Assembly (NCBI RefSeq): GCF_006715975.1
Contig: NZ_VFOF01000001.1
Span: forward strand, 10,001-74,000
From: Zymomonas mobilis
Lineage (GTDB): Bacteria; Pseudomonadota; Alphaproteobacteria; Sphingomonadales; Sphingomonadaceae
DNA: 64,000 nt
Reading direction: 5' to 3'
Each line of letters starts with the position of its first letter. The first letter of the stretch is position 1. The position numbers and the translations under genes are program-made. The notes beneath the pieces are model-generated. The model did not search any database. It saw nothing but the letters and a program-made list of their open reading frames with translations, and had not been told where the DNA came from. Shown piece after piece: positions 26,603-62,359 of the stretch.

Positions 26603-27610
26603 ATGCCTCATACCCGCTATGATATTGTTGCTATCGGAAACGCCATCGTCGATGTGCTAGCCGCAACCGATGATAGTTTTTTAGATGAAAAAAACATTAC
26701 CAAAGGCTCTATGCAGCTGATTGATGCTGATTCTGCTGAACAGCTTTATCAGGAAATGAACGCCAGCCATGAAATCAGCGGCGGTTCAGCGGCAAATACC
26801 CTCGTAGGTGTAGCTTCTTTGGGTGGGCGCTGTGCTTTTATCGGACAGGTGGCCGATGACCAGCTCGGACAGGTTTTCCAACAGGATATCCGTGCCCAGA
26901 ATATCCATTTTGATGTTCCCGTCCACGGTACGACAATTCCGACAGGTCGTTGCCTTATTCTGGTATCGCCGGATGGCGAACGCAGCATGAATACCTTCTT
27001 AGGTGTTGCCCAGACATTGCATCAAACAGCGATCAAACCGGAAATTATCGAGAATGCAGAAATTCTCTATCTTGAAGGTTACCTTTGGGATCCGGAAGTG
27101 CCGCGTTCGGCGATGAAAGAAGCCATCCAGATCGCCAGAAAAGCAGGCCGTAAGGTCGCATTAACGCTGTCTGATATCTTCTGCATTGAGCGCCATCGCG
27201 AAGATTTCAAAAAGCTGATCAATGAAGGCTTGATTGATATTCTGTTCGCTAATGAAGGTGAGTTGAAATCACTAGTTGAGCATGATGATCTTGATCAGGG
27301 TATTCACGAAGTCGCCACCAAACTTCCTTTGTTAGTTGTGACCAGAGGCCCAGAAGGCGCAATTGCGGTTCAGGATATGACGCGCACGGAAGTCTCTGCA
27401 AAGAAAATTGACAAGGTAGTAGATACCACTGGCGCTGGTGATCTTTTTGCGGCTGGCTTCCTTGCCGGTCAGGCAAGAAATCTCTCTATTGCGGCAAGTC
27501 TTGAGATGGGCGCTATCGCTGCGGCAGAAGTTATTTCTCATTACGGCGCACGGCCTGAAAATGATATTAAAGCGATGATTGAATCTGCATTGAATATTAG
27601 CCTGAATTAG
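26603..27610 (+). CDS. PfkB-family carbohydrate/adenosine kinase
   Basis: 335 aa ribokinase-fold kinase. The N-terminal motif is IVAIGNAIVDVLA, the first PfkB signature GGSAANTLVGVASLGG, and the second DTTGAGDLFAAGFLAGQ holds the catalytic Asp. Alphaproteobacterial homologues are usually called adenosine kinase; the substrate cannot be fixed from sequence. The ATG has GGAAAGG seven bases upstream. The gene appears monocistronic and ends at a strong shared terminator. Confidence 0.88.
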   Translation: MPHTRYDIVAIGNAIVDVLAATDDSFLDEKNITKGSMQLIDADSAEQLYQEMNASHEISGGSAANTLVGVASLGGRCAFIGQVADDQLGQVFQQDIRAQNIHFDVPVHGTTIPTGRCLILVSPDGERSMNTFLGVAQTLHQTAIKPEIIENAEILYLEGYLWDPEVPRSAMKEAIQIARKAGRKVALTLSDIFCIERHREDFKKLINEGLIDILFANEGELKSLVEHDDLDQGIHEVATKLPLLVVTRGPEGAIAVQDMTRTEVSAKKIDKVVDTTGAGDLFAAGFLAGQARNLSIAASLEMGAIAAAEVISHYGARPENDIKAMIESALNISLN

Positions 27611-59667: not shown

Positions 59668-60606
59668 TTATAAGGCTGGGGCAGGATTCAAGACAGGACC
59701 ATCGGTAATAAATTTATGACCTGGTTGACCGTACAAAAAGCCATTTGCAAAAGAAGGCATTTCGGGATGCAGACTGGCTAAAATATCAGTTGCTTCCTTT
59801 GCCTCAATTTGCCCAGCCAAACATTTTCTGAATAGCTCTGCTGTTGCAACCATATCTCCTGATTGCGGGGAAAGCCGGAAGCTATGAATACCAACCTGCT
59901 GTAATTCAGGAAGCGCCTGTATTAAATTACCACAACCATAAGTTAGCGTTTGCATACCATTAACAGTGAGAAACGGTTGTTTTTCCAAAGTACTGATGGT
60001 CAGCCCGTCTTTATGGCTAAGACAGGCGAAACGACAATTGTCCTTGCTCCGCCCTTTGGCGCGGGCATCAAAACAACGTGCCGAAATAGAAATAGGTAAG
60101 CGACCAAAAGCAATAACTTCTAAAGGAATAGCGCTTCGTAAAGCGAGTTCTTTTATTACCGTGGCCGGAAGCTCTGGATTAAGGCAGACTTTTTCAGCAC
60201 CTAATCGCGTTAAAAAATCAAGAGCACCTTCGTTATAGATATTTACAAAAGGCCCTAAATGATGAGGTTTACCCTGTAGTAAACGAACTAAACTAACATC
60301 ATTAGCTTCGATAACACTTTGGGTATTTTCGACTAGTTCTTCCATAGCATGCACTTCATCGGCAGTTCCGACTAATGCCATGGAAGAATAAATTATTTTT
60401 TTACCGCCCCTATGAAGGCGGTCGGTAATTTCAGATAAATAGCGTTTTAAGAAGGGAGAGCGCTTTGAACAAATTACTTCCCCCAAATAAACGCTATCAA
60501 CATCACCTTCATCCGCAATACGAAAATAAAAATCGCGCAGAAATCTTGCTGGCCACGGGAACATGACCGGGCCCAAGGATAAATGGTCGTTTTTTGAGTT
60601 ATTCAT
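59668..60606 (-). CDS. ubiV: UbiV, O2-independent ubiquinone hydroxylation protein (U32 family)
   Basis: 312 aa from the ATG at 60606, which overlaps the ubiU stop as ATGA with AAGG seven bases upstream. LGPVMFPWP starts the protein. Four Cys match the [4Fe-4S] ligands of UbiV: one in EVICSKRSP (Cys46) and three in ARCFDARAKGRSKDNCRFAC (Cys178, Cys191, Cys195), with C-x12-C-x3-C spacing identical to E. coli (Cys180, 193, 197). UbiU-UbiV hydroxylate the ubiquinone ring without O2, using prephenate as hydroxyl donor. All ligands are present here. Confidence 0.93.
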   Translation of the reverse strand: MNNSKNDHLSLGPVMFPWPARFLRDFYFRIADEGDVDSVYLGEVICSKRSPFLKRYLSEITDRLHRGGKKIIYSSMALVGTADEVHAMEELVENTQSVIEANDVSLVRLLQGKPHHLGPFVNIYNEGALDFLTRLGAEKVCLNPELPATVIKELALRSAIPLEVIAFGRLPISISARCFDARAKGRSKDNCRFACLSHKDGLTISTLEKQPFLTVNGMQTLTYGCGNLIQALPELQQVGIHSFRLSPQSGDMVATAELFRKCLAGQIEAKEATDILASLHPEMPSFANGFLYGQPGHKFITDGPVLNPAPAL

Positions 60607-61991
60607 CGCCACCCCTTCCGGTATGCACCGCGGGTTTCTTCACCACCCTCGGCCAATTTACGTAATCTGTTAAGAACATCCGGCATGCTCTCAACAGATT
60701 TTCCTGAAGCTTCCGCATCCAACAAGGCCCGAAAACAGGAAACGACTTCAGTTGTATAAAAACGACTGCGCTGCCGCCCTTCGATTTTAAATGAAGTAAC
60801 ACCGGCTGCTCGCAAACTAGCAATATACTCGGCAGCATTCAGGCATTCCGGTTTTTCAAAAAGATAAGAGGCCTCGCCTCCCTCCGGGATGTAGCGCCCT
60901 TTGCAAAGAGTCGGATATCCAGCGGATTCACCTTCGTTAAAACGGTTGATCATAAAATCACCCAGTTGCGAGACCAGAACGCCATCTTGATTTTTATAAC
61001 GAACATGTTCAGCTGGAGAGCAAACGCCACATAAATTAGGTGACCGCCCAGTCGCATATGCAGAAAGGGCGCAGCGACCTTCTGACATTGGAGAGAGGCT
61101 ACCAAAAATAAAGGTTTCTATTTCGATCGGAGCTTTTTCTTTCAAGACCGCGATTTCATCAAGAGTAAACATTCTTGGCAAAACCATGCGGTTGATACCA
61201 AACATTTCATAATAGAACTGAATTGCGGCAGGAGTAGATGCCCCAGCTTGGACAGAGAGATGTCGAGACAAATCTGGATAATGCTGACTGGCATAAGATA
61301 GCAGCCCCATATCTGCCATAATCAAGGCATCAGCACCTAATTCAGCTGCGGTATCTATTGCTTTATACCATGAATCCATATGTCCGGCAGCAGCATAAGT
61401 ATTAATAGCAACATGGACACGCCGCCCTCTTTCATGAGCGTATTCCAAGCCGGCTTTCAGATCATCTCGACTAAAATTTAATCCAGGATAATTCCGCGCA
61501 TTTGTTTCATCGCGAAAGCCAAGATAGACAGCATCAGCTCCGGCATCAACTGCAGCCCTTAATGCGGCAGGTGTCCCTGCTGGTGCTAATAACTCTATGG
61601 CTTGTTTTGGAGTTGTCGCAACGTCAGGCGTATTTTTGAGATGATCTGCTGTTGCAAAGACAGGACTGTCGCTAACTGAGGCTGCTTCTTTTAGGGAAGC
61701 CTTTTGCTGCAAAATATCAATCTCAGCTTGCATCGCAGCTAGATGTTCTGCGAGCCTAGTCGTTTTTTTCAAGAAAGGATCAATAATACGATCAAGACAT
61801 CGATTGGCGATCCCTCCTGCACGATTGAACAAATGACGGAATGGTTCAGGCAGAGAAAAGACATCGCGTAATAGATCTTCTCCTACCCCATCCATCGCGT
61901 TTCGAAGAGCGACAACAACAGACATATCCCCATCGACTTTTAGATCGCGAGAAAAGAAGAGAGCATCACCGTCGCTTTCGCCATGCAACAA
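60603..61991 (-). CDS. ubiU: UbiU (U32 family) fused behind the C-terminal part of UbiT
   Basis: This frame begins inside UbiT: LHGESDGDALFFSRDLKVDGD is the second half of an SCP2 lipid-binding domain. A linker (about residues 104-130) leads to UbiU from IELLAPAGTPAALRAAVDAGADAVYLG (about 132) to the end. Normally ubiT and ubiU are separate; here no stop separates them, and no good Met lies near the UbiU boundary (nearest is Met87). UbiU ligand Cys307, Cys324 and Cys363 match E. coli Cys176, 193 and 232, but the Cys169 position is Ser300. Translation probably depends on the upstream frame change. Confidence 0.85.
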   Translation of the reverse strand: MLHGESDGDALFFSRDLKVDGDMSVVVALRNAMDGVGEDLLRDVFSLPEPFRHLFNRAGGIANRCLDRIIDPFLKKTTRLAEHLAAMQAEIDILQQKASLKEAASVSDSPVFATADHLKNTPDVATTPKQAIELLAPAGTPAALRAAVDAGADAVYLGFRDETNARNYPGLNFSRDDLKAGLEYAHERGRRVHVAINTYAAAGHMDSWYKAIDTAAELGADALIMADMGLLSYASQHYPDLSRHLSVQAGASTPAAIQFYYEMFGINRMVLPRMFTLDEIAVLKEKAPIEIETFIFGSLSPMSEGRCALSAYATGRSPNLCGVCSPAEHVRYKNQDGVLVSQLGDFMINRFNEGESAGYPTLCKGRYIPEGGEASYLFEKPECLNAAEYIASLRAAGVTSFKIEGRQRSRFYTTEVVSCFRALLDAEASGKSVESMPDVLNRLRKLAEGGEETRGAYRKGWR

Positions 61992-62359
61992 ACGAAAAAA
62001 ACTTCGAGTGAAGCTTCTAAATGCGCATCGATATCATCTCTTGTTGAAAAAAATTCGGGAGATGTTGCTGTTAAATGAGGGTGTCCATTTGAGAAAGATA
62101 ATAAGAATCCGACAGTCAAATCTTTCGGTTGGATAAAAACTTTTTTACCATCAAGAGGACGCAGCCGGTCTTTCAGACCAGGGATACGATGCTCAAGTCT
62201 AGCAATTATCATCCGACATAAAGGATTGATCATTGGCCGTGGTAAGGCCGTTAATGCCAATGAAAAGAATAAGTCCTGTCGTTCTGCCGACATAGCAAAA
62301 AACGGAGAGGGTCGTGCCGATAACGGCAAATGTCGAGAGAGCAAAGAAGAGGCATCCAT
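61940..62359 (-). CDS. ubiT: UbiT N-terminal part (SCP2 domain), frame-broken before the ubiU fusion
   Basis: 139 aa reading frame. ALTALPRPMINPLCRMIIARLEHRIP and KVFIQPKDLTVGFLLSFSNGHPHL match the UbiT SCP2 domain, which binds ubiquinone intermediates for UbiU-UbiV. After LEASLEVFF the 0 frame diverges into about 16 unrelated residues and stops at 61940. A -1 change at T-TTT-TTC (62000-61994) would instead give RLLHGESDGDALFFSRDL, exactly the missing SCP2 half. Either this is programmed frameshifting, transcript slippage at T7, a sequencing error or a true lesion. Confidence 0.82.
   Translation of the reverse strand: MDASSLLSRHLPLSARPSPFFAMSAERQDLFFSLALTALPRPMINPLCRMIIARLEHRIPGLKDRLRPLDGKKVFIQPKDLTVGFLLSFSNGHPHLTATSPEFFSTRDDIDAHLEASLEVFFVCCMAKATVMLSSFLAI

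Follow-up and report, generated by a model that had tools for sequence, protein, structure and literature searches.

The window, by which we mean the whole analysed stretch of 64,000 nucleotides from a 2.10 Mb genome of 7 contigs, carries ubiT, ubiU and ubiV one after the other on the reverse strand. The 0 frame of UbiT is a 139-aa ORF (62359–61940, reverse strand) ending at 61940, in which GAA GTT TTT TTC closes 122 UbiT-like residues and is followed by 17 out-of-frame residues and a stop codon. The run of 7 T at this site (62001–61995, reverse strand) is followed by C at 61994. From the run, the −1 frame reads FFRLLHGESDGDALFF and remains open through to the UbiU stop at 60603. The heptamer T-TTT-TTC (62000–61994, reverse strand), which is of the slippery X-XXY-YYZ type, lies in the correct register for a −1 slip. 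The first-pass annotation had placed the T run and the heptamer at these coordinates and in these frames, correctly, and its reading that the UbiT 0 frame stops early while the −1 frame holds the rest of the SCP2 domain and runs stop-free into UbiU was borne out.

In the −1 frame, Pfam and NCBIfam both located the C-terminal part of the SCP2 (UbiT) domain (61890–62000, reverse strand) and the UbiU domain (Peptidase_U32; 60606–61598, reverse strand, stop codon at 60603–60605). The UbiU equivalog NF047963 of NCBIfam matched this frame with 482.5 bits (cut-off 440). The NCBIfam UbiT model aligned only over its profile positions 78–116 of 120, with 38.1 bits, below its cut-off of 46.9, and the Pfam SCP2 model showed the same split, aligning over profile positions 65–101. 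The 139-aa product of the 0 frame, which is without the last third of SCP2, had no match of its own in Pfam or NCBIfam. As assembled, the UbiT/SCP2 domain is thus split over two frames, and a complete copy does not share a frame with UbiU; in G001, the only relative scanned, a complete UbiT domain was found in the UbiU frame with 65.9 bits (NCBIfam). Directly downstream, ubiV is intact, with 314 aa from a GTG start (59668–60612, reverse strand), overlaps the end of ubiU and matched NF047965 with 342.3 bits (cut-off 275). As for the beginning of UbiU, it had been claimed that no good start codon is present near the domain. This is a fair description, as the in-frame ATG codons downstream of the T run (61925, 61895 and 61733) have upstream matches to AGGAGG of at most 4 of 6 bases and poor spacing, though a restart at one of them may occur.

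We searched 20 relatives with the DNA of the locus and obtained matches in the three genomes of the same genus (G001, G002 and G003) besides the window's own genome. In each of the three, UbiT and UbiU share one uninterrupted ORF (581, 581 and 580 aa), and ubiV comes next. Their codons at the site of the T run are GTC TTT TTC CAT, GTC TTT TTT CAT and ACC TTT TTT GAT, compared with which the window sequence is one base short of the frame kept in all three. T-TTT-TTC stands in the slippery register in none of the three; G003, to which the second of these sequences belongs, has the letters TTTTTTC in another register. A scan of contigs with the fused alignment found one relative, the MAG Zymomonas sp. 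W26, with its match at the same position as in G003, and it was not counted separately; a plasmid collection searched with the locus gave no match.

The claim that ubiT and ubiU form a single fused gene is therefore sound, the gene being intact in the three congeners and already published (PMC6747719). The fusion itself is not new and has been known from Zymomonas since 2019, when Pelosi et al. reported fused ubiT-ubiU in two Z. mobilis genomes (PMC6747719). As in the window, the published gene belongs to the same genus and consists of a UbiT part and UbiU, with ubiV directly downstream. The published copies are described there simply as fused, whereas the copy in the window differs by its one-base frame break.

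For the wider distribution of the fusion, a family search of 397 genomes returned 7 matched genomes, which were the four Zymomonas genomes, G324, G209 and G274, the last with a weak match (E 4.5e-4). In G324 and G209, ubiT and ubiU are separate and adjacent genes, and ubiV follows. A search across the order gave matches in 50 of 396 genomes; among the order matches listed, a full-length match free of stop codons was found only in G001, and in G430 a single frame extends over both genes and carries two stop codons between them. We examined 30 junctions between ubiT and ubiU in Sphingomonadales, 2 from the family search and 28 from the non-Zymomonas loci among the order matches listed, and the fusion was absent from all of them. 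At all 30 loci the two genes share a strand and ubiT comes first, as in the window, but in contrast to Zymomonas they are separate in every one. In E. coli, too, ubiT and ubiU are separate genes. The junctions were formed by a 4-base ATGA or GTGA overlap (23), by a one-base overlap (2) or were scored as a gap (5), one of the last (L046) having been traced separately as a 4-base overlap. The UbiT-UbiU fusion is thereby shown in four Zymomonas genomes, of which the window's has the broken copy; the order matches examined revealed it in no further genus. At the other end of ubiU in the window (60603–60612), the stop codon and a possible ubiV ATG at 60606 also overlap as ATGA, the layout found between ubiT and ubiU in those 23 of 30 unfused loci (GTGA included).

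The first-pass annotation had proposed that fused UbiTU may be made by programmed −1 frameshifting or transcript slippage. In this reading, recoding would be functional in this lineage only, with the ribosome slipping by −1 at T-TTT-TTC or the RNA polymerase slipping on the run. The heptamer belongs to a valid slippery type and sits in the required register, and the protein sequence is conserved in both halves, with dN/dS values of 0.04–0.11 in 6 of 6 comparisons with the window's genome (dS saturated, 1.4–3.2). Judged from these substitution rates, however, low dN/dS on both halves fits an error, a recent mutation and recoding equally well. Programmed frameshifting finds no support in the relatives, all three of which read through in one frame with no need of a slip and with no heptamer in register, or in the RNA downstream, in which no structure beyond chance was predicted (90 bases, z −1.02, 28 of 200 shuffles folding as well, pseudoknots being outside the model). 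Also, the product of the 0 frame lacks any recognised domain, and one-base losses in unrelated genes of the same assembly, described below, need no recoding mechanism. E. coli dnaX, a programmed −1 frameshifting gene with an X-XXY-YYZ heptamer, has the type of heptamer in common with the window; in contrast to genes of the dnaX type, no stimulatory structure was found in the window, the heptamer is not conserved and the truncated product is without a recognised domain. We consider functional recoding in this lineage very improbable. Equally hard to credit is a variant in which the 7-T run is real and UbiTU has recently come under the control of ribosomal −1 or transcriptional slippage, yielding a short UbiT fragment and a little fused UbiTU.

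To look for frame breaks, we set 664 kb of the window's genome, made up of the window and another 600 kb, against 680 kb of G001, using non-overlapping ORFs of at least 120 aa. An earlier comparison with ORFs of at least 80 aa was set aside, as many of its flagged rows look like antisense ORFs or disagreements on the start site. Homologues were present for 411 G001 ORFs, 12 of which were flagged as interrupted in the window's genome; three of these (364, 252 and 540 aa) were dropped as breaks near the start, leaving 9 internal breaks, or 8 if a strict near-start rule also removes a 214-aa ORF with its break at codon 26. At the break, all 9 read as a loss in the window's genome, with a single base missing in 8 and two bases in the other. 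Besides ubiTU, the broken genes on contig C1 encode a copper-type (CopA-type) ATPase (near 1027061), a DUF2155 protein (the 214-aa ORF, near 1045810), Aat (near 1046504), a sucrose hydrolase of ScrB type (near 1059060, the loss of two bases), TsaC/Sua5 (L-threonylcarbamoyladenylate synthase, near 1110749, loci L098 and L099), RlmN (near 1142487), a TPM-domain protein (near 1153882) and a CdsA-type cytidylyltransferase (near 1265398, locus L120). Additional small gaps occur close to the breaks in Aat and the 214-aa ORF, which are less secure cases.

In the reverse direction, 9 of 406 ORFs were flagged, corresponding to 2–3 internal breaks in G001 under strict counting or 3–4 under lenient counting, in which the row of a 375-aa ORF was included too. 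Five near-start rows (190, 381, 266, 259 and 375 aa) were dropped, as was another mirroring the CopA break, while those kept were a 301-aa ORF (−1), a 219-aa ORF (−11) and a 187-aa ORF overlapping the 375-aa ORF on the opposite strand. The excess of breaks over G001 is modest. A 335-aa gene at 26603–27610 of the window is intact there and in G001 and lies over two frames in G002 (contig C1, near 1437750).

Two of the broken genes, tsaC and cdsA, are essential. TsaC/Sua5, which is near-universal, occupies a single locus in every one of the four Zymomonas genomes; it is split in the window's genome alone and unbroken in the three congeners, and its family was detected in all 14 control genomes (13 above the cut-off). 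Since the only TsaC/Sua5 copy is split by the same kind of loss, it is unlikely that such losses are all real. The CdsA-type gene, with a single locus per genome and its family in 13 of 14 controls (12 above the cut-off), shows T8 reduced to T7 compared with G001 near codon 60, a loss like that in ubiTU. The CdsA conserved domain is nevertheless kept within a single frame, so that a shorter product might work, which counts against an error. Another point against an error comes from the 264 kb that hold the ubiTU locus, at which the only internal break among 104 ORFs is ubiTU itself (one near-start row dropped), with 44 A/T runs of at least 7 in the 110 kb of conserved coding sequence (the ubiTU site possibly included); the assembly is thus not generally poor at such runs.

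It is in this light that a real and recent one-base contraction of the T run in this strain has to be weighed. T runs are prone to contraction, ubiTU is the sole clear break in its 264-kb neighbourhood (1/104), and strong conservation on either side of the site would be expected of a very recent break as well. Breaks are also met in relatives (2–4 of 406 ORFs in G001, and the 335-aa gene in G002), and the 0-frame product is without the last third of SCP2. In this case a truncated UbiT would be made, with UbiU produced only by a weak restart (e.g. at ATG 61925) or missing altogether, and O2-independent ubiquinone synthesis would be lost or reduced. On the other hand, the downstream ubiV is intact and conserved, and the same kind of loss in the only TsaC/Sua5 copy makes it doubtful that these losses are all real. 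We regard a genuine contraction as unlikely.

The frame break is most likely an assembly error in an already known fusion gene, since one-base losses interrupt other genes of the same assembly as well, the single copy of TsaC/Sua5 among them. Sequencing error, which the first-pass annotation had named as a rival to its own proposal, is accordingly the best fit, and we infer that the ubiTU loss belongs to the same class as the one-base losses found elsewhere. A single T would have been lost from the T run during long-read assembly; PacBio-only assemblies may retain one-base deletions. The living cell would then carry an ordinary uninterrupted gene, with the fusion protein made by normal translation. 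The gene is the fused ubiTU of Zymomonas, made up of a lipid-binding SCP2 part (UbiT) and a UbiU part, with ubiV following, and, by analogy with the published family, UbiTU and UbiV would serve the O2-independent hydroxylation of ubiquinone. With 8 or 9 broken genes per 664 kb surveyed, frame breaks in this assembly are not readable as biology without the reads.

Regarding the literature on anaerobic ubiquinone, anaerobic ubiquinol synthesis was gap-filled in PMC7451989, and strong gene candidates for it were not found there, as far as the accessible part of that paper goes. The main text of PMC11707229 mentions neither the fusion, nor Zymomonas, nor a frameshift. In the accessible text of PMC10746277, ubiquinone is unmentioned and "ubi" occurs only within the reference list. 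On the sequencing side, the accessible part of PMC7604302 attributes homopolymer errors to Roche-454 and Ion Torrent and not to PacBio, so that we did not take it as support for an assembly error here. For Z. mobilis subsp. francensis, assembly with HGAP4 from PacBio Sequel reads alone is described in the published record, which gives 7 scaffolds, equal to the contig number of the window's genome and also of G001. The window's genome probably belongs to this subspecies, as suggested by the identity of its CcrM to that of G001, which is 94.2%, compared with 81.4% for G002. These values are close to the published identities to ZM4, 95% in the case of subsp. francensis and 82% in that of subsp. 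pomaceae (PMC8088579), and so fit francensis for the window's genome and pomaceae for G002.
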